Part shown: positions 13,131-64,000 of the stretch, piece after piece
Layout: each line of letters begins with the position of its first letter
Numbering within the stretch: the stretch's first letter is position 1
Assembly (NCBI GenBank): GCA_038503035.1
Contig: JAVSML010025154.1
Coordinates: forward strand, 434,001-498,000
Direction: 5' to 3'
Length of the DNA: 64,000 nucleotides
Source: Crocodylus rhombifer
Taxonomy: Eukaryota; Chordata; Crocodylia; Crocodylidae
Program-made: the position numbers and the translations under genes
The notes under the pieces: model-generated
Seen by the model: the letters and a program-made list of their open reading frames with translations, nothing else
What the model was told of the DNA's origin: nothing
Databases searched by the model: none

Positions 13131-13427
13131 CTTTTCCTAAGTCAGACAGCTGCTTGGTGGCAGAGCCAGAAATAAAATGCAGGTTCTCCTGACTCCCAGT
13201 CCAACACCCATGAACCACATGGCTCCCAACCACATGGCAACCACATTATGGTCTTGATCTTACAGATATTTATGCAGGTGTTTAACTTCCTACTCTGAGT
13301 AGCCCTGTTGAAGTAAAAAAGACTATTCGGTGAGTCAAAGTAAGCACATGCAAATATAATTGCAGAATTGGGGTGCAAAAGGTATTCCGCTCTCAGAGAT
13401 GTGCAGTGGATTTTTGGGTAGCATAAT
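13131..13427. repeat. Left arm of a ~285-bp inverted duplication
   Basis: The reverse complement matches 14298-14591 along the whole arm, roughly 85-90% by eye. The outer part is MIR-like ('AAGTGACTTTTCCTAAGTCAGACAGC...GGCAGAGCC...CTGACTCCCAGTCC'). The inner part resembles another old amniote repeat ('GGTCTTGATCTTACAGATA...GTTGAAGTAAAAA'). Both arms carry the same junction between these two pieces, so the composite was duplicated as a unit. Confidence 0.85.
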
Positions 13428-14297: not shown

Positions 14298-14591
14298 GCT
14301 ACAGAAAAATCTGCTGCACACCTCTGACAGCAGAATACTTTTTCACCCTAACTCTGCAATCATATTTGCATGTGCTTATTTTGACTCTCCAAATAGTCCT
14401 TTTTACTTCATTGGGGCAACTCACAGAGTGGGAAGTTAAATTCCTGCATAAGTGTTTATAAGATCAAGACCATAATGTGGTTGCCATGTGGTCGGGAGCC
14501 ATGTGGCTCATGGGTGTTAGACTGGGAGTCAGAGGGACCTGCATTTTATTTCTGGCTCTGCCACTAAGCAGCTGTTTGACTTAGGAAAACC
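14298..14591. repeat. Right arm of the inverted duplication
   Basis: This is the inverted counterpart of 13131-13427. It keeps the MIR-like block (reverse strand: 'TTAGTGGCAGAGCCAGAAAT') and the adjoining repeat block. The match ends at TGACTTAGGAAAA near 14591, and the following sequence is unrelated to that left of 13131. Confidence 0.85.
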
Positions 14592-14667: not shown

Positions 14668-14952
14668 GACTGTGTCTACACAAGATGCTTATTGGCCAGT
14701 AGCTCATTAGTACTCCTCAGTAGCTCTTTACTACTGTGCAATAGCATCGCAGCCAGGCATGAACCATAACATGAAGATGCTACTGTGCAGTAGTAACAAG
14801 CTACTGCATGGTCAGCATCACCACAAATCCATGCAGGGATGCTACTACACAGTAACGCTGGTTACTGTGCAGTCATTTAGTACCTGGGCATGCAAGTACT
14901 AAATGACTGCACAGTAACAACTGCACAGTCAGCATCTTCTGTAGACGTGGCC
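14668..14952. mobile_element. MITE, 3-bp-TSD 'GGCCATGTCTACA' family (copy 1)
   Basis: The left end GACTGTGTCTACACAAGATGCT-like sequence is inverted at the right end (AGCATCTTCTGTAGACGTGGCC). The flanks are ACT on both sides (14665-14667 and 14953-14955), a 3-bp target duplication. The body repeats TACTGTGCAGTAG phrases and has an internal hairpin with perfect 23-bp arms (14861-14883 and 14896-14918). There is no coding frame. A 3-bp duplication and G-rich TIR suggest PIF/Harbinger-like mobilisation, which is inference. Confidence 0.8.
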
Positions 14953-48785: not shown

Positions 48786-50065
48786 AAACACTTACATAAT
48801 TCACAAGATTTCAAGCAGGAATCAATAGAGTCAGAAGCATTGTGACCTGCTGTAGGCTGAATTCTTAGCAACAGGAGAATTAATCCACTATTTTTCCTTT
48901 TAATACAGAAGAGTCAAAACTAACAGCTGGCATTTTCCAAAGGGTCTAAGGAGGTTGGGGAACCCAAGGCAAACATGCATATTGTTAAGAGAGAAATGCA
49001 AGGAACAAACACTGTTAGGGCTAATGGCCAGAATTAAGCTTAAGGCTAGTTAGGAGCCACATTACCAATCTAGTTCAGCTGTATCTGATTGCCTGGCTGC
49101 AGGTAGTTAAGCATCAAGATAAAAAACTTGATGCTCAACTTCAACATGTTTCCTGCTCCAGGGATTCAGCCTATGTTAAGATTCTAGCCTTTAGTCAATC
49201 TCGGTCTTGAGAGTAGCTCTAGGACAGGTGCCTTTATTAAGGCAAAAAATTGGCCTTTTCCCCCCTCAGATTTTGGGGGTGGCCTAGTTCAGGCAAGGAG
49301 CAGGGGTTTAGCCCTATGTGGTTATTGGCTCCAAGGTTGGGAGTTGCCCTTGGAAGTACAAAGGAAAATTGCTTGTGGCCTCTGCCGACTGGACAGGGGG
49401 CACTTCTCCAGCCCATGCTTCCTTCCAAGCAGTGAGAGCATGCATGAAGATGGGTCTGGCCAGTTAGGTTAGCCCACTACTTTGAACTGAATGTTGGTTG
49501 TTCAGGGCTTTTTAAGCCTGTAGCTATTTTTAGTTGCTGATTGCTTGCTCACTTCATTTTCTCCTGCTTCTGGCCTCTTTACCTGTTCTCTGGGTCAAGC
49601 TTTGACCCTGTTTCTGCACTAATCCTTCTTCGGCCTTGTCCCCAGCACATGCTTCAGAACCAACAACAGCTTTGTCCCCCAGAGCCTGCCTGGGGCAGTA
49701 ACACAAGCCTGGGTAGGTTCTGAACAAACTTATTTTCCCAATCCCAGCTCTCTGCTCTTGTTACCTTAGATTTCCCAGCACAGTGGTTGACCGTCACTTC
49801 TGGCTCCAGTCTCTCAGACTGCTTCAGGCTGCTGATTCATGACCTGACCCTAGCACCATCTAGGCTCTGTTGTAGAATACAAATAGGTAAGTCAGCTTTG
49901 CATTTTAGTTCCATTTCTGATATTTGTCAGACAGACCTTCACTTGGCAGTCTCTTGTAGTAGCTTCTGCCTAGGAAGAATTTTTATAATAATAATAATAA
50001 TACTTGTTATTATGATTATTCCTGGTGTGCTTTGAATTGCATTGGACATAGAGGGATACATGGCT
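48786..50065. other. Unrecognised DNA
   Basis: 49230-49440 is GC-richer with short frames. 49540-49870 is rich in CTCCTG/TTTGACCCTG/GGCTCCAG phrases like those at 45820-45960. 49985-50003 is an (AAT)n microsatellite. Confidence 0.45.
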
Positions 50066-50069
50066 GATT

Positions 50070-50250
50070 CCAGTGGTGGCCAACCTTTTCAGCAGGCATG
50101 CTGAAAGTTAAGTCCAAGTGTACCACAAGTTAAGCCTGCCCTCCCCGAATGCCATTCTGATGCATGCCCCCTACACTATCTGCTGTTCTTCCCATTGTAT
50201 CCCTGAACTGCCATGTGGCATGTGGAGAGGCTGCCCATAAATTTAGAGAC
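50070..50250. mobile_element. hAT-like element fragment (left end only)
   Basis: 'CCAGTGGTGGCCAACCTTTTCAGCAGGCATGC' resembles the left terminus of CAGTGGTGGCCAACC-type hAT elements. No matching inverted right end was found, so it is probably truncated. 50234-50269 is a tandem duplication of CCATAAATTTAGAGACT. Confidence 0.45.
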
Positions 50251-50821
50251 TGTCCATAAATTTAGAGACTCAAAATCCAAGCTAAAAGAATTTGTCTATA
50301 GAGTCTAAAAAACTGAGCCATCCATAAAAACACTAAGCAACTCAGATCTGATTAAAAATCCCTCATTAGAAATGAAGCTGGAATTAAGTTTTGGAGGACA
50401 GACAGAGCAAAACAGCACCACCTGGTGTCTGAGAAGGAGCAGAGCACACTGCACAGAGCTCTGAGGGGATAGGCTAGGAAGGCATCAGGGTGTAAGGATG
50501 AGTAGGAGACCCATGGGAGCATCAGAGTGATGGTAAGGCCATTGCTGCAGTCAGCCTAGGATGCCAACCTCCTCCCCCCCACCACCCCCAAAGTTATTTT
50601 TACTAAGATTCTGCAAACTTACTGACTGACAACCAGGCTCCACCCCCTGCCATGGTTAATGTTAAAAAAGCTAAATTTGAATTCATCCATTGTCCAGGGC
50701 CTGGCAAGTGGATTACATTTATATTATGTAAAATGCATCAGTAAAAAGTTTGCAGATTGTCAGTAAAAATAAGTTTCTTTTTTTTTTTTTTGGTAATCCT
50801 GCTGCCGATGCCACTTGCAAC

Positions 50822-51607
50822 CAATGTTCCCTTTAAGGCTTAACGATCCATGAGTGTGCCGCTTCAGTCTGTTCCCAGACTGGTCTCGCCTCTCCCTTTC
50901 AGCAGCTGAGCAAATTATTCTCACAACATTATTTGGGAGAAAAGAGTCTTGAAATACTAAACTATATATATTTTATTTTTAAAAAATTAAAATACATAAA
51001 ACCCTGCCAAAACAGAAAAGTTTATGTATAATTCTCCACCTGAGGAGACCATGCAAAAGAAAATGGATTTCATGTGACAGACATAAATCACATCATTTAA
51101 TATACTCTGTAAAGCTCTCAGGTACTGTAAAACACTGAAGGTATGCCTGGTCTGCCCTATCTGGCAGATTTCATCACTCTTTCAGAAATGATCCACACTG
51201 CCTCCATAGCCTTTGAAGGCAGAGTGGAACCTTGTGTGTCCTGCCACTGGGCAGACCAGGCAGCAGGGAGGCACATGGCATCAGGTTCAGGGCAAAGCTT
51301 GCCTGAAGGGGCTGGGGAGTAGAGCCTGCGCAGTGCCTGGCTCAGCCCCAGTTCCCACTCCTGCCTTGCCTTGGAAAGGAGCCACTGCCTGCCCTGCACT
51401 GCTCTCTCTCCCCACAGGGATGCTCGTGTGGTAAGGAGTGGAGAGCAGAGAGTGGTAACTTACCACTGGTCCCAGTGCCTCTGCCACACTTCAGGTTTCT
51501 AGGAAGCCGCAGCACAGCTTCTCTCTGGGTGGGTGCGCAGCATTACAAAGCTAATGCATGGCAAAAAAAGTTTTTGTGCATGGTCACACACCTTAGAGGG
51601 AACCTTG
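50822..51607. mobile_element. hAT-type element, 'CAATGTTCCCTTTAAG' family
   Basis: The left end CAATGTTCCCTTTAAGGC and the right, inverted CAAGGTTCCCTCTAAGGT, form TIRs. The octamers CTTGCAAC (50814-50821) and CTTGCAAA (51608-51615) match at 7 of 8. The interior is mixed, with a GC-rich part at 51200-51480. Open frames there run on both strands and lack transposase motifs. It is non-autonomous. Confidence 0.8.
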
Positions 51608-52170
51608 CTTGCAAACAATCCGTGGCATTATGCACCACTGCTAGCCTATTGTTTAAGGTTGATTTCTGGTTTCCCATGGTTAAATCTTTCTTCTCAGAGG
51701 TTTCCTGGTGATACTGTTTATAGGCCTCCCAGTGTATTATGAATCTCTCACTCACACTGATCATGTTTTTGTCTGTGGTGGCACTCCCAGGCCTTACTAC
51801 ATTGATACCCATATAGAAGATGGCTCCTTTGCTTGTAAGCTCATAGTTTTATGAAAAGCCTTGACCCTAATTCAACAGAAGTAACAATTCTTGCCAGGTA
51901 AGAATCAGGTTCCTATAGATGAAGTTTCAGTAAATTCAGTATGCATATTGATGAATGCATGCACCAGGGATGAATGTTATCATGTTTTTCATTTAAAAAT
52001 AATGCCAAGATACATGTGTGCAGGCTGAAGCCAAGACATCCTTCTGTCCCCTCCAACTTGTCATCTTCTCAATCTCAGTTGAATAAAACAACATTTTTCC
52101 TATGCTTCAGTGAAAAATACACTGGCACACATGAGAATCAGTCTAGTGTTGAAACCTTTGTGTGATCACA

Positions 52171-52538
52171 GGGCACATCTACACATGTGCATTTACTGTA
52201 CATTAACCAAAATTATTACACAGTACAGGCATGTGTCTACATGTGAACAGCCACACTGTGTAGTAAATATGGCAACTTATGCCAACTTGGGTGTAAATTT
52301 GATACCTGCACAATGCAGGTATCAAATTTATGCCTGATTAGCTACTATGCAGTAATGAGCATGTAGATGCCTTACTGCACAGTAACACTGTTTGTGGACT
52401 GACTTGGGACTAACTTTAGTCCCAAGTCAAAGCACATTAATGCTGTGTGGAATAATGCCTGAATGTGTAGATGTCAGCCTATTCCCACTTACTGCACAGT
52501 AACTTTAAGCAGTCATAAATACACAGGTAGGCATGTCC
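52171..52538. mobile_element. MITE, 3-bp-TSD 'GGGCACATCTACA' family (copy 3)
   Basis: The left end GGGCACATCTACACATGTGC and the right, inverted GGACATGCCTACCTGTGTAT, are related termini flanked by ACA on both sides (52168-52170 and 52539-52541). The body repeats TACTGCACAGTAA phrases. It contains two perfect hairpins: 17-bp arms with a 3-nt loop (52294-52330) and 14-bp arms with a 2-nt loop (52400-52429). Confidence 0.75.
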
Positions 52539-52541
52539 ACA

Positions 52542-53032
52542 GTGTACTTTCTGTTCCTTTTTATTCTGGCATATCTTCTGGCATGTGAACCAACACAGTG
52601 GCAAATGGTGAATCTGTTTGATAACTGTAGAAGCTTAATGCCAAGTGCATGTACTACTCATTTCAGTTCCTAATGCCAAATGCATTCAGTGCCCAATTTA
52701 GCAACAGGCTAGAGGAACCGATTTATCTTTTTAACTGGAATTTTTAAAGGATAAAATATGTGTACAAAACAGAAAGTGTTTTAGTGCTTCCCCCACTCCC
52801 CTCCCTTACCCAAACATTGGCCAAGGTCTTGCACAACCATTTCACATGACTTTTAGTAGTAGTTTCTTTTATCTTTTTTATATCTGCTGCGGAGATAAAA
52901 GGAGACAGCATGGGATTTTGATGTATAAATTAGTTTTCCCAACGTATTGTTAAAAAAACAAAACAAAACAAAAAACCAGCATGTGGCAAAGTTTAATTTC
53001 TCCTCCTTTTTCATTAGTGCTAAAATGGCAAT
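52542..53032. other. Unrecognised AT-rich DNA
   Basis: 52948-52977 is an AAAAC-type A-rich run on the + strand. No gene or named repeat. Confidence 0.5.
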
Positions 53033-54986
53033 CATAGAATCATAAAAGTAGGGTTGGAAGGGACCTTATAGATCTTCAAGTCTGACCCCCTGCCAGGACA
53101 GGAGAAAAATAATGGGCTCAAATGATCCCAGCTAGGTAGGCATCAAGCCTCCTCTTAAAGACCCCCAGGGTAGGAGTCAGCACCACTTCCCTTGGAAGTT
53201 GGTTCCAGATCCTAGCCGCCCTGACTGTGAAGTAGTTCTTAGTTCTAATCTAAACCTACTCTCCAACAACTTGTGGCCGTTATTCCTTGTTATGCCAGGA
53301 GGCACTAGGGGAAACAAGGTCTCTCCCAAACCCTTCTGGTCCCCCCTAGTGAGTTTATAGACTGTCACCAGGTCCCCCTTCAGCCTTCTCTTGTGGAGGC
53401 TAAACAGGTTCAGGTCCCACAGTCTCTCATTGTAGGGTCTGCCCTGTAGTCCCCAGATCATGTGGGTGGCCCTCCTCTGGACCCTCTCAATGTTGTCCAC
53501 ATCCCTCCTGAAGTGGACAGAACTGGACACAGTACTCCAGCTGTGGCCTGACCAGTGCTGCATAGAGGGGGAGGATCACCTCCTTGGCCCTGCTAGAGAT
53601 GCATCTGTGGATGCATGACAAGGTCCGGTTAGCCCTGCCAACCGTGGCCTCACATTGTCGGCCCATGGTCATCTTGGAGTCGATAATGACTCCAAGATCC
53701 CTTTCTGCCTCCGTGCTCTCAAAAAGGGAGTTTCCCATCTTATAAGTGTGCTGCTGGTTTCTACTGCCCAAGTGCAGCACCCTGCACTTGTCACTATTGA
53801 AATGCATCCTGTTTTTGTTAGCCCACCCCTGTAAATTATCCAGGTCTTGCTGCAGTCTTTCCCTCCCTACTAGTGTGCTCACCTCACCCCAAATTTTGGT
53901 ATCATCAGCGAATTTAAAAAGGGAGCTTTTCACCCCATTGTCCAAATTGCTGATAAAGAGATTGAACAGTGTGGGCCCAAGGACCAAGCCCTGGGGGACT
54001 CCGCTGCCCACTTCTCCTCAGGCTGAATACAACCCATCCACCACCACCATCTGAGTGCGACCCTTCAGCCAATCTGCAATCCATCTGACTGTGTAGGCAT
54101 CAATGCCACAGTCACCCAATTTCTTAATGAGGATGGGGTGGGAGACGGTGTCAAAGGCCTTGCTGAAGTCCAGAAAGACTACATCATCTCTGAGGCCAGC
54201 CCATCCAGATGTGCTCCATGATGATCTTCTCAAAGAGCTTCCCTAGGGTTGAGGTAAGACTGATGAGCCTATAGTTGCCTGGGTCCTCCCTCCTCCCTTT
54301 TTTAAAGATGGGGACCATGTTGGCTATCTTCCAATCATCTGGCACCTGGCCCAAGAACCATGAGTGCTCATAAAGCTGTGCAAGGGCCCTCCAATAACCC
54401 CTGCTAGCTTCCTCAATACCCTGGGGTGGAGAGCATCTGAACCCGCTGATTTGAACATGTCCAGCCCCTCCAGAAGCTCTCTAACCCAGTCCTTCCCAAC
54501 CTGAGGTCTGGAGGCGTTCCCCTTGAGTCCATCTTGCATCACGGTGGGGAAGTCCCAGTCCCTGCCCAAGAAAACAGAGGTGAAGAATTGGTTAAAGAGG
54601 TCTGCTTTCTCCACCAGATTGCCCAGAGGATCTTGCAGGGACCCCACATTTTTCCAGTGCTTTCTTCATCCTCCCTATATATTTGAAAAAGGACTTTTTG
54701 TTATCTTTGATTTTGGATGCAATTCCTAGCTCTATGTCCACCTTAGCTTTCCTGACAGCCCCCCTACAGGCCTGAGCAGAGGAGGTATACTCCTCTTTGG
54801 AGATAGCACCCCCCTTCCACCGGGTGTACGCTGCCTTTTTGGCAATCAGACATTCCCGGATGCCCTTGGTGAGCCAGGGGAGCTTTCAGGCACTCCTGCT
54901 CCCCTTGCTTTTTGTTGGGATGGTCACCCCTCGGGCCCTGAGTATTGTCATCTTGGGCACTGAGTTCCCCTGCCCTTGGCAATACC
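53033..54986 (-). mobile_element. CR1 LINE, 5'-truncated, with most of the reverse transcriptase
   Basis: Reverse-strand ORF2 of a CR1 non-LTR retrotransposon, an enzyme that copies its RNA into DNA at the target site. In order: linker region before RT (54986-54650, several frames, 'VRKAKVDIELGIASKIKDNK'), 'FNQFFTSVF' and a 107-codon frame (54324-54647). Next come 'NYRLISLTSTLGKLFEKII' (about 54290-54215), 'VVFLDFSKAFDTVSHPILIK' (54018-54233) and 'GVPQGLVLGPTLFNLFISNL' with the catalytic FADDTK in a 174-codon frame (53487-54011). The C-terminal tail is in a 128-codon frame (53177-53563). The last two frames overlap by a frameshift, and another shift lies near 54015. The endonuclease and ORF1 are missing. 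The 3' end reads GGTCCCTTCCAACCC then TATGATTCTATGATT. It is inactive, but it is the best-preserved element in the window. Confidence 0.95.
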
Positions 54987-55426
54987 AGACAAGAAGGAGT
55001 AATGCCCTATTGTTTAAGACAACCGTCAATATTAATTTACATATAGATTAGTCCAATCCTGTTATGTCATAGAATTAGATCCCCCCACCCGAGGAACTCC
55101 CGCCAAGTTTGACATCCATAGGCATGGCTTGGTTACATAGCCTGGTTCAGCACCATAGAGAGATACTTGCTCTGTCCAAGCTAGTTAACTTTGCTCCTTG
55201 GGGACTTGCTCCTTGCAAGCCCGGCTGGGGATGCAGCCCAGTCTACAGAGGGGTGGCAGAGACTTCCCTTTCCCCACCCCCAGCAAACCCTGGATGGGGG
55301 CCACGGTCGGGGGTGGGGGGTTAAATTCCCCTTCCCTCATTCAACCTTACTGTGGCTGTAACTGTGGACTACAAATCCCAGAGGCACCTGAAAGCAGGAA
55401 GAGGAAGTGATAAACAACCCTGTAGA
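54987..55426. other. Unrecognised DNA, partly GC-rich
   Basis: 55200-55330 is GC-rich with a GGGGGTGGGGGG tract. Short forward frames only. Confidence 0.45.
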
Positions 55427-55584
55427 GTCATCTATATCTGTAACCAGGTACCTTCATCACTGGAGGGTTTCATGAAGAGGCAGGATATGCATTACTACTT
55501 CTAAATCATTCTTCACCAGTGCGTATCCTGCCTCTTCATGAAACCCTCCAGTGATGAAGATACCTGGTTACAGATGTAGATGAC
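55427..55584. repeat. Near-perfect long hairpin, 64-bp arms
   Basis: Arm 55427-55490 is the reverse complement of 55521-55584 except at three positions, all C/T differences. Two of these would be G-U pairs in RNA. The loop is 30 nt (55491-55520, AT-rich). Similarity stops sharply outside both arms. It matches no repeat family I know. It could be a young foldback MITE, a palindrome from replication template switching, or a hairpin RNA source. Confidence 0.93.
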
Positions 55585-56357
55585 AATGGATTTTATGCTT
55601 TATGGCAGCAATATCTGACTGTAACTGGCAGGGACCCCAGGGTGGCTGTGATATGGTCAGCCTGCTCCTGTTATGCCCTTGGTCCCTTAAGCATTCTCCC
55701 CTTCTCCTTTCCCGCCATGCCTTGATACAAATAAGTATTTAGAAAAGGGAGGCTGCCTTTGGGATCCCTGAGCAAGATCTCATTCACTCCTGCCCTTCTG
55801 TCTGTCTCTGTCAGGGTCTTGGCCCCCCACCAGGCACTAATGGGACCTCCAAACAATACCTTTCTAGTCCTACCCAAAAAACTAGTCCAAACCTTAATCT
55901 GCTCCAGGTATAGCAAATGACAACAATAGCTTGCTATCTTACAGCAAAACTTCCCTTTACCTGGGGTTGTGTTTCTCTATATTGCACCAATATTCTGCTC
56001 ACTGTCCTTAGTGCACCTCTGGAGCCATCCTGGCCAGGAGTCCTTCATCCAGTGGCACTTCTCAAACCCTACCCACATTGGTCAGGTGATCTATCAGCTA
56101 GCCTGACCACAGGGCTGTTTATTAACTCCAGCTTTGCCAACAACCCTTGTTTTGTTCACAAATCTATTCCCTGAAACAGACCATTCCCCTTTTCTGTAAC
56201 AGGGTAAAGGTTTCCTTTTACATCAACCCATCTGGTCCCAAAGGCTGAAAGAATGTCACAGGGCTGGTCACAGTCCATATCTGCCTATGGACTGGCCCTG
56301 CAGGCCGTGATCATTTGTTGACCTCTTAGATCTTGGGTCTTGCTTGTTGTGGTAATG
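55585..56357. other. Unrecognised DNA
   Basis: Short frames on both strands (55671-55916 reverse, 55917-56174 forward), none with a recognisable domain. Confidence 0.45.
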
Positions 56358-56365
56358 TCCTAGGC

Positions 56366-56721
56366 CAGTGGTGCTCAATCTCTGGCCCATAGGCCAGATC
56401 CAGCCTGTGGGGCACTCCACAGGTCTGCAAATTTGGCAGCAAGGGAGTGGAAGCAATTAATAACAGCTTCCCTGCCATCAAATTTCTAAGCCCAGAAGGC
56501 CAGATGACAAAGTCCTGCATGTGGGGCCAGGGCCATGAATGCAGTCTGGTCAAGGGACTGTTCCAGCATGTAGGGATAAGAACAAGGGCCTGATCCACTA
56601 CATGTGACTAGGACTGGAGCCAGCCTTGCATACTGGATTGGGCCTACAGATTGGCTCTGACCCACAGACTGATCCTGAATCAGTCATCCAGCCCACAGGG
56701 CCAAAAAGTTGGGCACTACTA
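56366..56721. mobile_element. hAT-type MITE, 'CAGTGGTGCTCAA...CTGGCCC' family
   Basis: The left end CAGTGGTGCTCAATCTCTGG and the right, inverted TAGTAGTGCCCAACTTTTTG, are matching termini. The octamers TCCTAGGC (56358-56365) and TCCCAGGG (56722-56729) agree at 6 of 8. It shares the 'GGCCAGATCCAGCCTGTGGGGC' block with the family of 42471-42887. Non-coding. Confidence 0.8.
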
Positions 56722-56729
56722 TCCCAGGG

Positions 56730-57510
56730 TAAGGCTGATATTGGCTGCATGTATCTAGTAATCAGTTTCTTAGCAGAAGTTCTTACTGCCTTCAGATTGT
56801 ATTCAGAGTAGATTGGAAGCACATATAAAAATAACCAAAGCTCTTCTTTACACCCCTGCTTCCAAAGACTTCTAGTTTATTACCCAATGAGAAGCAAGTG
56901 AACAACTCAGATTTTTGGAACATTAAAATAATGGGCCAGCAGTAGTTAATAAAAACATATGGATGCTCTCTTTGGGAAGGATATCTTTTCCTTCAGATAA
57001 GCTTTTTCAGATACTGACCAAAAAATGATTGCCTGAATTAAAAAAAAGCTCTGTGGTTAGCAGACCTGCCAAGCTAGGCCCCGAACCAGCACAGGATTAG
57101 AAACAACTCATATCTACATTTACCATAGTGCAGTGATTTCTACCTTACTCTATAACTATAAAATCAGATCCAAACAGAAGAAAGGCAAACCCTATATGTT
57201 AAAATAGCTAAGGAATACCTGTTATAATACTGGCTCTTAAAAATCCCTAATGTCCTTCTTGGGATTTCCTGGCCTGTAGGGTAAATTCCACTGAACAATA
57301 TTGAGTTCCTATAACAGAAAACCTTGCCTACAAGACAGAAGGAATTTTAAAGGTGCAGCTATAGAGATAAATAGTCATATACTAATAGCTGTGTGCCTGT
57401 GCTGTCCTTCCCTCAAAGCCTCGTTATGATTCAAATTCAGTTTACCATTTAGTAGGTGGAAGCTGCATTCTAGACTCAAAGAATGCAGTTAGACCAAAGA
57501 AAGCTCTCAC
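56730..57510. other. Unrecognised AT-rich DNA
   Basis: No repeat or gene signal recognised. Confidence 0.45.
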
Positions 57511-57511
57511 C

Positions 57512-57906
57512 TAGGGCTGTGAGAAACAGCAGCATTCTGCTTCGACTTCCGTTTTGACGTTTTGATGGAACATAGGTTTGTTTTGAGTTCTGTTTCATTT
57601 TGAAAGCACTGTTCTGTTGAGTTTTGTCGAAACATTTTCACTGTTTCAACACTGTTTTGATGTTTTGCAGACTCAGCCCATTAGGAGGAAGTGCCTCCTG
57701 CCACTGGATCAGCTGGATCCCATGGTCTCCTTGGTCTCTGCTGCATTCCCCACTTGCATGTTGGTACCAAGCCATAAGGACAGGGCCTTTACTAGTGGAA
57801 ATGCAACAGCAGAATTTTGTGGTTCATTTTTATTATTTTTTTCTCATGAAAAATGAAGCAGAATTCTTTTGGGGTTTGGTTCCCTTTGATTTTGGTTTGT
57901 CCTAAT
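57512..57906. mobile_element. hAT-like element, left end preserved
   Basis: 'CTAGGGCTGTGAGAAACAG' resembles the terminus of 40415-41105 (TAGGGCTATGTGAAGC). It is followed by runs of GTTTTGA/CATTTTGAAA and their loose inversions further right, such as TTTCTCATGAAAAATGAAGC. The expected right terminus (CACAGCCCTA) is absent, so it is truncated. The two short forward frames here are non-coding. Confidence 0.5.
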
Positions 57907-58275
57907 GTCAGCTGCAAAATAGAGGGAAAAATTCTAAGGAAAATAAGCATACAAATATGAACTGAGGCAAGGGATGGAAACTGTTTCATTTAAAACATCT
58001 GAAAAATTACCCAAGCCATCTCTATTTCCAAAGCTTCCACAATTTTTGTTCCACTCTTCTGCAGCTTTTGGTACTGCCACTGACTAGAATATGTGCAGCT
58101 GATTTATTACAATTTGAAGTAGCCACTTGGGTAATGAGAATGTCACTTTCCACCCTTTAGCTAACTATTCCATTGTTTTTATTAGAGGGAAAACAATAAG
58201 AAAGTATTTTTATTTCATTTTTTTTAATTAAAAAAAGCACAGAGCCCCAATGAAGGGCCATGATTTGAGATCAAA

Positions 58276-58951
58276 GGCCATGTGTGTACAAAATGAGAGG
58301 CACATGTGCACGACACTTCAAAGCGAGCTAAATGCTTTTGCACCGCTTTAATGGTGTTGGTGTTTGCATACCTTGGCAGCGTATTGCGTGTTAATTCCAG
58401 CTGCTGTAGAAAATTCAATGGCGTAATGCGCCTTAAATGACTTGGGGTGCAGCAAACTAAAACTTCTTCAAGGAGTTTTAGTTTGCTGCCCCTATAGCTG
58501 TGGAACGAAGCACCAGGCTCTGTGCTTCGCTCCATGGCTCTGCAGGAAACCCTGCAGGCAGCCTGGCAGCAGCCTGGGAAAGCAGTTCTACCCAAGAAAA
58601 GCAGAGAGCCTGATCTTTCCACCCCTCTCCCCACCCCGGAGCCTGCCTGCCTGCCTGAGCTGCGCGGGGCCTAGTGCTTCCCTGTATGGCTGTGGTGCCC
58701 CACAGGACTGCTTGAGCCAGGTGCCTGCAGGCGGGTGCTGCTGGGAGAGGTGGGGGGGGCCACAAGTGCCATAGAGAGAAGGACCAGCCCCAGCAGCCCA
58801 GGGACTGCTTTGCTTGCTGGCAGCTCACCCTCCCCTCCCCGCCGTAGAGGCAGGTAAGTCAGCGGGGTGTGTGCACAACACAGGGGTTTAATCAGCCTTA
58901 ATTGAAGCCCACTTCTTCAGTTTAGGGCCCCTGTTTCATCTATGCACACCC
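58276..58951. mobile_element. DNA element, probable 3-bp-TSD 'GGCCATGTGTGTACA' family (copy 4)
   Basis: The left end GGCCATGTGTGTACAAAATG and the right, inverted GGGTGTGCATAGATGAAACA, are weakly alike, with AAA on both sides (58273-58275 and 58952-58954). Inside is a 16-bp-arm hairpin (58449-58464 and 58474-58489) and a GC-rich interior without transposase motifs. Poly-A context weakens the target-site evidence, so this is the least certain member. Confidence 0.5.
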
Positions 58952-59235
58952 AAAATAATACAACAGTAAAATTAGCTACCTGTGCCTGTACATTTAAGTT
59001 TCCCTGTAATGTTTAATGAGGAAAAGTAACAAGCTCAGAGAGAGGTAAGGGCATGAGACTAGGATTCAGAAGGATACTGGGAGAAAGTCTATACAGCATT
59101 ATATAGTTCTATAGACACCACTACTAGCTAGCTTTTGACATGCCTTTGATATTCTCTTCTGTAACCAAAGGCAATGACACTGCTGTGATGTGTGCATAAT
59201 GAGGTAGATGCTTGTGCTCAAAGATAAACACTGAC

Positions 59236-59317
59236 AACTCAAATATCCAACTAGGAGAAGGTATCTAATAGGATGCCCCAGGGGTTTATCCTGGGCTCAA
59301 GTGTTCAGCGAGTACTC
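59236..59317 (+). mobile_element. L3-like LINE fragment, part 1 of 3
   Basis: 'GGATGCCCCAGGGGTTTATCCTGGGCTCAAGTG' decodes as a decayed GVPQGSVLGP-type reverse-transcriptase motif ('RMPQGFILGS'). The reading stops at the MITE inserted at 59321. The next RT block appears at 59906, after a CR1 copy. Confidence 0.65.
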
Positions 59318-59320
59318 AAT

Positions 59321-59562
59321 GGCCATGTCTACATGAGACATGTAGACATGTGAAGTGGTTGCTGCGCTATTATTTAGTATTTATATAAACAAGTACTGAA
59401 TAAACACAGTAACCTGTGTTACTGTGTAGTAGTACCAGAGAATGCCTGTTTTGTGGCAATACTGTACAGTAGCGTCATGCCATGGTTTTTGCCATGTGAT
59501 GCTACTGTGCACTGCAGTACCACCAGGCTACTGCACAGTCAGCATATCGTGTAGACATGCCC
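59321..59562. mobile_element. MITE, 3-bp-TSD 'GGCCATGTCTACA' family (copy 5)
   Basis: The left end GGCCATGTCTACATGAGACA and the right, inverted GGGCATGTCTACACGATATG, are clear TIRs with AAT on both sides (59318-59320 and 59563-59565). The body has TACTGTGTAGTAG/TACTGCACAGTCAGCAT phrases shared with 14668-14952. Non-coding. It sits inside the L3 fragment. Confidence 0.85.
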
Positions 59563-59574
59563 AATTAGTATCTT

Positions 59575-59903
59575 TCATAGATTCATAGATTGTAAGGCTG
59601 GAAAGGACCTTGGAAGATCATTGGGTCCAGCTCCCTGCACCAAGCAGGAAAGATAACTGGGGGTAAGGTGACCCCAGCAAGATGACTGTCCAGTCTCCTC
59701 TTGAAGATGTTCAGGGTAGGTGATTGCAGCACCTCTGGAGGGAGCTTATTCCACAGTCTGGACACCCTGACTGTGAAGAAGTTTTTCCTAATGTTGAGCC
59801 TAAATTGATATTCCAGGAGTTTGTGGCCATTACTCCTGGTTTCCCCTGTGGGTGCCCTGGTGAAAAGTTGCTCACCGAGTCCTTGATATACTCTTATCAA
59901 TAA
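59575..59903 (-). mobile_element. CR1 LINE 3' end
   Basis: A 105-codon reverse frame reads 'FRLNIRKNFFTVRVSRLWNK' then 'LPPEVLQSPTLNIFKRRLDSHLAGV', the CR1 ORF2 C-terminus. The 3' end 'GGTCCTTTCCAGCCTTACA' leads into ATCTATGAATCTATGAAAG. It is strongly 5'-truncated at about 59903 and lies immediately right of the MITE, inside the broken L3 copy. Confidence 0.93.
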
Positions 59904-59905
59904 GC

Positions 59906-60105
59906 ATGGAAGTGCATCTATGTTTAGTTAATTTGCAGGTGGCACGAAGGTATGTGGGATAACAGACACCCTGAATCTTAATCCTGTTCTATCAAATGAT
60001 TTTGATACATTGGAAAACATGGTCTCAAATAAATAGGAGGAAATTCAGTGAGGACAAATGCTAAGTACAGTGTACTCCATGTAAACACTACTGGATACAG
60101 GCATA
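59906..60105 (+). mobile_element. L3-like LINE fragment, part 2 of 3
   Basis: 'TTTGCAGGTGGCACGAAGGTATGTGGGAT' corresponds to the FADDTKV.G catalytic block (here FAGGTKVCGI). This is followed by a '...DTLENM...NK.EEIQ.GQM' phrase (the L..WS...RM.FN.DKC region) in shifted frames. The catalytic aspartates are replaced, so it is dead. Confidence 0.7.
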
Positions 60106-60744
60106 ACTTGCTTAACTGCTGAACACATTGTCAATTCCAATTTGTTGCCTACAGTTTATGTTCTAACGAAGTCCAGTTATCTGTGCATTAGTTAAATGCA
60201 TAGACCAGTTCAGCACATGGCCTCTTTCATCCCCCTGGGTGCAAAGCAAAGCAATAAACTCCAGAGCTTTTTGATTCTGGGTGCGCCATTTGAATGTGCA
60301 CCCAAGACTGCAGCATTGCTTACAGTCTTGGGGTAGTAGCATCCCTAAAGCTGACTGCAAGAAACTTAAAAATGAGGGCAGTTAGTCAGTTTAGAGGCTG
60401 TTAATATTACAGCCCAGACAGCAGTTTTCAGCAATGCTAGTTAAGTACATGCCACAGTCAGTGCTGTGGTATTTGTTGGTCTCATTTCAAGGCTTCTAGC
60501 TGTTTCATGGCTGCCTTTTGAAAACCTGAAAATGAGAACAGCTAGTTCAACTTCCAGGGTTGCTAATACCACAGTGTACTTAAGGAGCACTGCTTACATT
60601 AAATCTGGGTATGTAATAGTCTGCGGGAATGCGTAGCCTTTTTCATTCCAAGGCAATACACTTGGAAACTGAGTGCACTGTTCCTTCCTAAGTTTAGTAC
60701 AATCAAGTGCACAAACATGTCACAAAGGATGCATGAGTAGTCTG
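60106..60744. other. Unrecognised sequence interrupting the L3 copy
   Basis: About 640 bp lie between the two L3 blocks. A 'CAGCTAG'/'CTGAAAATGAG' phrase occurs more than once (about 60373 and 60529). No TIR, LINE tail or gene is recognised. Confidence 0.4.
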
Positions 60745-61285
60745 CAGAAAAGGATCTGAAAGTTAATGTGGATCACCAGCTGAATGAGTCAGTAATATAA
60801 TATTGTTGCTAAACGGGATAACAGCACACTGGGGTGCGTTAACAAGAGTCTAGTACAGAAATTACAAGACGTGGTTCTCCCACTCTTTTCAGCACTGGTT
60901 AGGCTTTGTTTAGAGTACTACAGCCAGTTTTGGGCACTTCAAGAAAGAAGTAGGTTGCATTTCAAGAAAGAAATAGGCAAATATTAAGGAGTCCAAAGGA
61001 AAGTGACAGACGCCTGGAGAACTTGAAAGCAATTTATGAAGGATGGGGATTATACAGTTTAGAGAAGAGAAGTCTGACGGCAGGAATGGGAATTTGATAA
61101 GTCCTCAAACAATAAAAAAAGGTTATTTTAATGAGGATGGCAATCAGTTGTCTGCATAGTAGACGGGATAAGAATGAATAGGCTCAAATTGAAGCAAAGG
61201 GAATAAGTTAGATTCTCGGCAGAAGTTTCTGCTCAGGAGGGTGGTTAAACGCTGGACCAGATTACCTAGAGTAGCTGTGGATCTC
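60745..61285 (+). mobile_element. L3-like LINE fragment, part 3 of 3
   Basis: 'GAAAAGGATCTGAAAGTTAATGTGGATCACCAGCTGAATGAGTCAG' decodes as EKDLKVNVDHQLNES, the region after the palm domain. It is followed by 'GGGGTGCGTTAACAAGAGTCTAGT', 'CACTGGTTAGGC...GAGTACTACAGCCAGTTTTGGGCAC' and 'GTCCAAAGGAAAGTGACAGACGCCTGGAGAACTTG'. Order and wording match the L3-type tail, as in 474-997. The end is eroded. Confidence 0.75.
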
Positions 61286-62739
61286 TGCCATGCTGTGCAG
61301 CTCTTCCTGGTCTGCCCTCCACCCCCATCCTCCTCCCAGGAACAGAGGTACACAGGTGGAATGGTCTCACAGGCCTCTTTCCAAAAGGAGTGCGGGTAGG
61401 ATCAGATTGGGAAGGGCTACCGCTGAGCCAGCTCCTGCCTGCTGTAGGCTGATCTGAGCCCTAATGTAGCAGGACTGTGCATGTGGCAGTTCTGTCTGGC
61501 TGCCACCTTGGCACCACTGTGGAGAAGGGGGTTGCAGTACTTGGTCGAGAACCACTGGTCTATATAAACCATAGAAATTAAAGGTCATAAGAATTCTTAC
61601 CAGTAAAAAAAGAGCCCAGGAGCTAGAGCATACATGTGTTCCAGTCCTTGGACAGGGAACTATACAAGCAACTCTCCAGCCAGGAGGCATTAGAGGGCTG
61701 CTGTCCAGTCAGCTCCTGTCACCCTTTAGTAGAGCTGATTGACTGATGGCTTGCCCTCTCCCCTGTTTGGGAAGGCTGTTAATTGGTGGTTGGCAGCTGA
61801 TAAAAAGCAGCAACTGTCACAGTCCGGAGGGCATGCCAGCCTTAGGAGAATATCCCCCACCCCATCCTACCAATCAGCTGATTGGAGGAAGAGAGGGCCA
61901 TTTTTCTGTGCCTGTCAGGCCAACCTGAAGGAGTGTGGGATGGGTGGGTGATTTCTGCCTGGTGGCAAGCCTTGCAGTGGGATGGCAGCCTGCCCCTCCA
62001 GGCTGATCCAGAGCAACGTGGTGGGAGGCAGGGGCACTTTGCCATGGTGGCAAGATTCCTTTAGCCTTTCCATTGCACATGACATTCTGCCTTACTCCAC
62101 GCTGCTCCAGCAGAGTAAGGGCAGCCTGGGGCATTTTCCTGTGGCAGGAAGGCTTCTACTGGAGAAGAATGCCCACCTCCCACCAAATTGCTGATTGGTG
62201 AGAAGAGGGGATTTTTTAGGGCAGGGTCTCCACAGAGACCCCTGACAGCTCACCCCTAGGCAGGCTATTAGGGAGTCAGTTAGCCCTCCCTTTCTGCTGG
62301 ACAGTTAGCTTGGGAGGAGGGAGACCTTCCTGGTAAGTATCCAATCTCACTTCTTGCAGAAGAGCCATTTCTCTTCCACAAAAAATCCCCCAAATGGCTG
62401 TATGTTCTCCTTGTACTGAGAGAGAGGCACCACAAAAGTACAGCTTGTTCATGGCCTGAGATTACCTTGCCTCTTAAAAGCCCTTCAGACTTACTTTTCC
62501 ATGATTCAATGAATGTGTTAGCTTATGTACAACAGTCTGCATAGTCGAACGCAGCTTCCTGCAGAGAATTCTGGGATAGCTGTGTGTGTGCTGGTAAAGG
62601 AACCAAAAAAAAAATGTTAGCTTGTTGCTAATAAACCCAGAGCTAATTAGCATACCACTCTGCCCCAGGCAATAAGGCTTTCCTGCTTTTGCTTCCCCAT
62701 TTTAGATATCTGTTTGGCATTGCCTTTATCTCTATAGGT
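61286..62739. other. GC-richer unrecognised DNA with CCAAT-type palindrome
   Basis: 61740-62300 repeats phrases around GCTGATTGG and GAAGAG(A)GGG. It includes CCAATCAGCTGATTGG, a perfect 16-bp palindrome at 61870-61885, and CCAAATTGCTGATTGG near 62182. Overlapping open frames occur on both strands with no domain. This may be an unnamed repeat, with a partial echo at 63923-63930. Confidence 0.45.
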
Positions 62740-63051
62740 CAGTTATTCTCAACTTTTCTGAACCTGAGGCACCCCTCATTGGACTCAAGGCACCCTCCAT
62801 AGCTTCTGTGAACTGAGTGGCACCCAATCTAAAAACCTAATTTGTAGATTATAGCTCTTATTTCTTTGCAAAAGAACCTGGCAGGGAAATAAGGGATCAT
62901 CCAGGCAGGGACAAGTCTGAGCCTATGCTTATCTGCTTAAGTTTCTTTGCTTATCTTGTAGCTCCTCACTTATCTCCACACACCTCATGGCACCCTTCAA
63001 AAGATCTGATGGCACCCCAAGATGCCCCGACACCCTGATTGAGAATCATTC
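62740..63051. mobile_element. hAT-like non-autonomous element
   Basis: The left CAGTTATTCTCAACTTTTCT and the right TTGAGAATCATTC are inverted relatives of CAGTGGTTCTCAA. The internal phrases 'GAGGCACCCCTCATTGG' and 'GATCTGATGGCACCCCAAG' match the layout of 7653-7921, so the two are probably one family. Target duplication is not clear. Confidence 0.65.
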
Positions 63052-64000
63052 ATATTGACCAAGGTTTTGAATGTAGAGATGTGTCTATCACAGACTGCTT
63101 GGGCAACTTACTTGAATTTTCATTCTGCCAGTGCTTTCCCTATAAAAACACTGTTCCATAAAGGTCTATATTCTATGCTCATTGTGGTAAAATCTGAGCA
63201 CCTACCGCACTGAGGTGTAATGACGATATTTGTTAGCCATGACTATGAGGATCACATAAGTAGATGAATACATCCCTGGTGTCTAACCTTCTCAAATATG
63301 AACATGCAAGATGCAGCACTTGCAGTGTGTTTAGTGAATCAGAATGACAGTGTCTTATCACCAGGCAAGTCACCTGTTTACAAGAGAAAAAAAACTGTAA
63401 ATGCATTAGCTATGTAAATAGCTCCTTAAAGTATCAACTGTAGACTTTTGGTGGCGTTCAGTGAGCTTTGGGGAATTGGGAGGGAGGGAGAGAGGTGCAA
63501 TAACTCAAAATGCAGGAGTAAGGGAAGAGACCTTTAAAGTTAACCTAAGCAATGATGGGTTTTTAGCTACTTAGGGTAATATGTTACTTCTCAGCCAGGT
63601 TATGTACAGACATACAGTTTCTACTGGGAGAATCACTGTTCTCTCATTAAAAAATAAGTGTGCAGTCTTCAAGCTTTCTCCCTCAGGGTAGAAATGGTTA
63701 CTCTGGGAGAAAAATGACCTGGGAATAATCATGGTTATATTGCTTTTGGAATGTCTGCACATCTTCCCCAGGCTTGACTCCTTACAGGGACAAGGAGGAG
63801 CAGAGCTAAGGGAAAGGTTCCCGTGCCTTTTGAAAACTAGGGTTATCCCAGACAGGGTCAGCCCAGAGGAATGCAAGGAGCAGGGCTGTTCTCCTGTGGA
63901 TGCCTCCCCCCGCCCCCATCAGCTGATTGTTAGAATGTGGGGAGGAACATTTTCCTAGGACTGTAATGTGTCAGCTACTGCTTCCCAGGAGCTGCCAACT
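63052..64000. other. Unrecognised DNA to the right edge
   Basis: No gene recognised. 63571-63958 has overlapping frames on both strands. 63923-63990 echoes the CAGCTGATTG/GGAGG motif of 61870. Confidence 0.45.

Follow-up and report, generated by a model that had tools for sequence, protein, structure and literature searches.

The hairpin of 158 bp at positions 55427-55584 of the window, by which we mean the whole 64,000-nucleotide stretch of Crocodylus rhombifer DNA analysed here, probably arose by a one-off fold-back (template-switch) mutation, in one direction or the other, in an old, 5'-truncated copy of a CR1-type LINE that was already resident in the chromosome. Such a mutation would account for the near-identity of the two arms, for a 7-nt inverted repeat at their inner ends and for the presence of only one full copy among the genomic matches found.

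Geometry and copy number of the hairpin

The hairpin consists of two 65-nt arms, arm 1 at 55427-55491 on the plus strand and arm 2 at 55520-55584 on the minus strand, which are complementary at 62 of 65 positions and are separated by a 28-nt loop (55492-55519). The initial annotation gave the total size, the abrupt ends and the three differences between the arms, all transitions (55435/55576, 55451/55560 and 55488/55523), correctly, whereas its arms of 64 nt and loop of 30 nt have to be corrected to 65 and 28 nt. The structure is far beyond chance: the RNA fold of 55407-55604 has an energy of -123.1 kcal/mol against a mean of -44.2 for shuffled sequences (z = -19.2), and none of 200 shuffles is as stable. 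Together with the complementarity of the arms, this bears out the earlier description of a real, near-perfect hairpin. A palindrome scan with our own script (arms of at least 30 nt, at least 85% alike, loop of at most 120 nt), which covered the window and 54 loci (55 sequences, 185,574 bases), reported only this hairpin, seen also in three overlapping loci, and a second palindrome of the window.

The 158-bp sequence was used as the query in a search of the genome from which the window comes (2.2 Gb, 14,832 contigs); this search passes over words of very high frequency and scores no more than the top candidates, so that all copy counts are lower bounds. The full hairpin was located once, at the locus of the query itself (matched on both strands), and no second full-length hairpin was found in this genome. 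The query matched at least 25 further places with 76-84% identity. All 25 of these listed matches are partial and lie inside query positions 59-138 (window 55485-55564), a single colinear segment made up of the inner part of arm 2, the loop and no more than 7 bases of arm 1. Inverted repeats of 30 nt or more are absent from all 25 of these related LINE copies that were scanned. The second arm is thus a reverse complement of adjacent sequence rather than an independent repeat copy, the arms being complementary at 62/65 positions compared with the 76-84% identity seen elsewhere, a figure that refers to the LINE part only. Copy number had been proposed earlier as the means of telling a transposon from a local palindrome, and one full copy without a set of sharp-ended relatives, the other 25 of 25 matches being partial and CR1-like, fits the template-switch palindrome that the initial annotation named as an alternative.

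Source element, breakpoints and direction of copying

The hairpin was initially assigned to an unknown family, a label that no longer holds, given that the sequence comes from the 3' end of a CR1-type LINE. A copy profile places the last ORF2 codons, the stop codon and the start of the 3'UTR of this element at 55482-55564 on the minus strand, where the ORF2 C-terminus is in frame with the stop and the order is colinear with the LINE family. The hairpin itself is no part of the element. Translated from the minus strand, arm 2 plus loop give SSLEGFMKRQDTHW*RMI*, which lines up with the ORF2 end of another LINE in the window (PTLGVFKRRLDAYLAGII*) as well as with the C-termini of the matched LINE proteins; the ORF2 stop codon (55503-55501) and the beginning of the 3'UTR fall in the loop. 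The profile, built from 14 of the 25 copies, fits minus 55564-55482 without gaps over 83 bases at 64.0 bits (E 2.3e-19 over the window). The LINE piece equals the 14-copy consensus, which comes from the same genome, at 63 of 83 bases and differs at 20, a gap that may be overstated because the piece has GATTTAGAAGTAG in common with copies of another tail type, so that the consensus may represent the wrong subfamily. One of the LINE copies (L005) contains the ORF2 end and the 3'UTR start twice in tandem.

Six LINE ORF2 proteins were picked from the 120 listed, and 20 of the 25 loci match one or more of these six. Among the 120 listed, the matched proteins are reverse transcriptases, in most cases with PF00078, one of them jockey-like, and their hosts are birds, turtles, crocodilians and a lizard. 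These matches are themselves named reverse transcriptase or jockey-like, and we take the element to be CR1. CR1 is reported to be the abundant LINE in genomes of this kind (PMC4316615). A long, decayed LINE ORF2 with frameshifts lies nearby at 53121-54900 on the minus strand, as delineated by protein matches. The top identity for it among the 120 proteins listed is to Alligator mississippiensis protein P0030 (86% over 70% of the query; 86-89% in the pieces that P0030 covers). In the same set of 120, Crocodylus porosus proteins show 66-67% identity, and the lowest E-value belongs to a protein of the stork Mycteria americana with 52% identity.

From arm 2 the similarity to the LINE extends through the loop and declines at TGCATAT (55491-55485, minus strand), a heptamer that one copy (L015) has at the same place in the 3'UTR. 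Six of its 7 bases can pair with ATACGCA (55526-55520, minus strand), and the exception is the third mismatch of the arms. The probable inner switch point, ATATGCA at 55485-55491 (TGCATAT on the minus strand), is thus one half of a 7-nt imperfect inverted repeat, ATATGCA / TGCGTAT. A different seed, AGGCAGGAT/ATCCTGCCT, taken from a copy at 901-935 of the window, was dropped because the profile of copies with one tail type fades at TGCATAT.

At the outer end of arm 1, an unclassified high-copy repeat, here called repeat X (55215-55429, plus strand), breaks off within 3 nt of where the arm begins, so that GTC (55427-55429) is common to both. Repeat X occurs in at least 39 other places in the genome (40 of 818 candidates scored). 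It ends at 55429 in 10 of 11 comparisons and at 55428 in one, and beyond this break the 11 copies read are unlike arm 1 and go on with CTGCTG or similar. A further listing (40 of 200 candidates scored) gives 39 other matches, of which 35 break off at 55429; the remaining 4, at 85-90%, continue into arm 1 for 12-14 nt. The rest of repeat X has no match at E 1e-4 within 50001-64000, and the LINE-tail part of the profile finds nothing better than E 2.7 in the window. The inner ~45 nt of arm 2 match the LINE; for the outer ~20 nt of the arms, likeness to the LINE or X is not above chance, and no genome match appeared among the 40 of 81 candidates scored. The copied stretch includes these ~20 nt. 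Several other assignments were tried and rejected. The outer arm end scores as repeat X at chance level (2536/4000, 2072/4921 and 1348/4000 random stretches and 308/1000 shuffled ones score at least as well), as does the right flank as a LINE tail of the first type (2743/4000 and 1565/4916). The left flank, tried as a continued LINE tail, was equalled by 74 of 1965 random flanks and turned out to be repeat X. In copy L061, repeat X contains a tandem unit of ~80 nt, and a second partial unit is present in four other copies (L056, L058, L062 and L063).

Within the right flank (55585-55605, plus strand), 55589-55604 resembles the octamer repeat of LINE 3' ends (GATTCTATGATTCTATG). This likeness, noticed post hoc, is equalled by 38 of 6000 shuffles and by 8 of 5907 random window stretches, which may include some true LINE ends. 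Farther to the right, copy alignment places the start of another interspersed repeat at 55620-55760 (plus strand), with a TG... end that looks LTR-like by eye; by a by-eye count, 13 of 16 aligned copies extend to about this boundary. A weak match to repeat X (2.0 bits, colinear order; 1 of 4000 random stretches is as good) at 55607-55642 overlaps this repeat, whose 16 aligned copies give one X match, at 0.0 bits; we read the match as chance.

The copying might have run in either of two directions, which we regard as about equally probable. If arm 2 was the template, a strand ending in the 3'UTR (...TGCATAT-3') would have folded over to pair with ATACGCA at the end of ORF2 and copied 58 nt of arm 2 into arm 1 (55427-55484, 58 bp); the new arm would then have joined repeat X at GTC, with loss of the LINE tail and of the remainder of X. 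This direction would explain the coincidence of the end of X with the end of arm 1, since the copy is joined to X at GTC. If arm 1 is original, a strand arriving through X and arm 1 would have switched to the opposite strand at ATATGCA, copied the loop and arm 2 backwards (93 nt, 55492-55584) and returned near the 3' end of the LINE, of which 55589-55604 would be the octamer end. The outer switch point varies accordingly: it would be GTC with X for the former direction, and for the latter the return point is not fixed. The octamer-like right flank would favour arm 1 as the original, and the X match at 55607-55642 points the same way (if it is real, X resumes there and copying from arm 2 fails); in view of these two results we leave the direction undecided.

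A fold-back hairpin is a known kind of mutation. Template switching is reported to create hairpins of this kind (PMC8794818), and the short-range switches of the four-point model (PMC7954356, PMC8794818) likewise place a reverse-complement copy nearby and yield a near-perfect hairpin. In great apes the copied length has a reported median of 12 nt and a maximum of 128 nt (PMC7954356); the 58 or 93 nt that would have been copied here are under this maximum and over this median. Those switches come from aligned species, whereas the present event, including a presumed earlier state that lacked the copy, is deduced from repeat copies. Whichever enzymes might have been involved, in yeast 4-bp stems are reported to suffice to prime fold-backs (PMC7467729). 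The hairpin-primed inversions described there likewise combine a short self-complementary seed, an inverted copy and a second junction elsewhere; unlike the ~158 bp inside a chromosome discussed here, they are gross rearrangements selected in mutants. Our literature search found nothing that joins crocodilians, hairpins and template switching, and nothing on Chompy in crocodilians.

Age and alternative origins

At the reported rate of 3.9e-10 substitutions per site per year (PMC4299795), 2 differences in 58 positions correspond to an age of ~45 million years (Poisson range 5-160), and 3 in 65 to 61 million years (range 12-173). At this rate the hairpin would be roughly 45-60 million years old, with wide limits. 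For comparison, few CR1 subfamilies are reported to have been active in crocodilians since ~87 million years ago (PMC4316615). The earlier characterization of the structure as young applies relative to the LINE piece (3/65 versus 20/83 differences) and does not apply in absolute terms, the age being tens of millions of years at the rate quoted.

The alternative closest to the proposed mutation is a fold-back during reverse transcription and insertion of the LINE itself, which would make the palindrome as old as the insertion. This is compatible with the break of repeat X at the arm end, with a right flank resembling a LINE 3' end, and with the LINE present in both arms of the second palindrome (212-764). 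We nevertheless consider it unlikely, given that the arms differ at 3/65 positions and the piece differs from the 14-copy consensus, possibly of the wrong subfamily, at 20/83. An old inverted repeat whose arms gene conversion has kept identical, perhaps because they serve as dsRNA, could likewise explain why the two arms resemble each other far more than the LINE piece resembles related copies, and two of the three mismatches stay as G-U pairs in plus-strand RNA. However, a single later origin already explains the likeness of the arms, two of three mismatches as G-U is not beyond chance, and no Rfam family supports a dsRNA function at the gathering score, which renders this explanation very unlikely; any gene conversion would make the hairpin older than estimated above.

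The foldback MITE suggested initially, or another DNA transposon with long terminal inverted repeats, would fit the long, sharp, near-identical arms and the short unpaired centre. The many copies sharing both ends that characterize such elements were not found: against the one full copy stand 25 of 25 partial, CR1-like matches, 20 of these loci matching LINE ORF2 proteins, and no target-site duplication is seen by eye at the arm ends, where the flanks AAACAACCCTGTAGA and AATGGATTTTATGCTT share none. Judged by the copies found, the hairpin is not a transposon family, and such an origin is extremely improbable. An assembly or library artefact (a fold-back chimera) might be suspected of a sequence that comes from one assembly only, but the three differences between the arms and the separate repeat that ends at the arm end make it highly improbable.

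Predicted RNA, significance and other inverted repeats

If transcribed from the plus strand, the hairpin would have 64 of its 65 arm positions paired, counting two G-U pairs; the remaining mismatch is C/A. The Dicer and ADAR roles suggested initially for such a duplex are putative. There is no Rfam match at the gathering score and, accordingly, no described family of microRNAs or hairpin RNA genes matched at its cut-off. The best sub-threshold match, to MIR173 (40.9 versus 70 bits, E 3.2e-7, search with 401 bases), is read as stem likeness.

The hairpin is a readable and roughly datable case of a long hairpin formed from dead retrotransposon sequence, probably by one mutation, and new hairpin RNA genes have been proposed to originate in this way (PMC8794818). 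The slowly changing crocodilian genomes may be suitable for counting such events. The hairpin alone alters no current view. Its origin is largely readable from sequence, and any role in the cell is putative. A broader and quite unlikely scenario is that the 3' ends of crocodilian CR1 elements are prone to fold-back copying and that hairpins formed in this way survive, owing to slow sequence change, for tens of millions of years as a reservoir of long dsRNA precursors, antisense to CR1. If this were true, the occurrence of two CR1-derived palindromes (55427-55584 and 212-764) in 64 kb would be no coincidence; at present, two LINE palindromes in 64 kb are suggestive only.

The second palindrome (212-764) comprises 271 aligned bp at 85.6% with 8 gaps and a loop of ~19 nt, with LINE ORF2 in both arms, and its plus copy continues to a LINE-like 3' end near position 1000; it has no other full-length match among the matches listed (40 of 5157 candidates scored). 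The window also contains an inverted pair at 13132-13381 / 14338-14589 (~294 bp, 87.4%, spacer near 950 bp), for which comparison with seven LINE proteins gave no match. Finally, a cluster of short inverted repeats with a MITE-like look and a recurring TACTGTGCAGT is located at 14700-14940 and includes an inverted repeat at 14861-14918 (26 nt, 96%, 6-nt loop).
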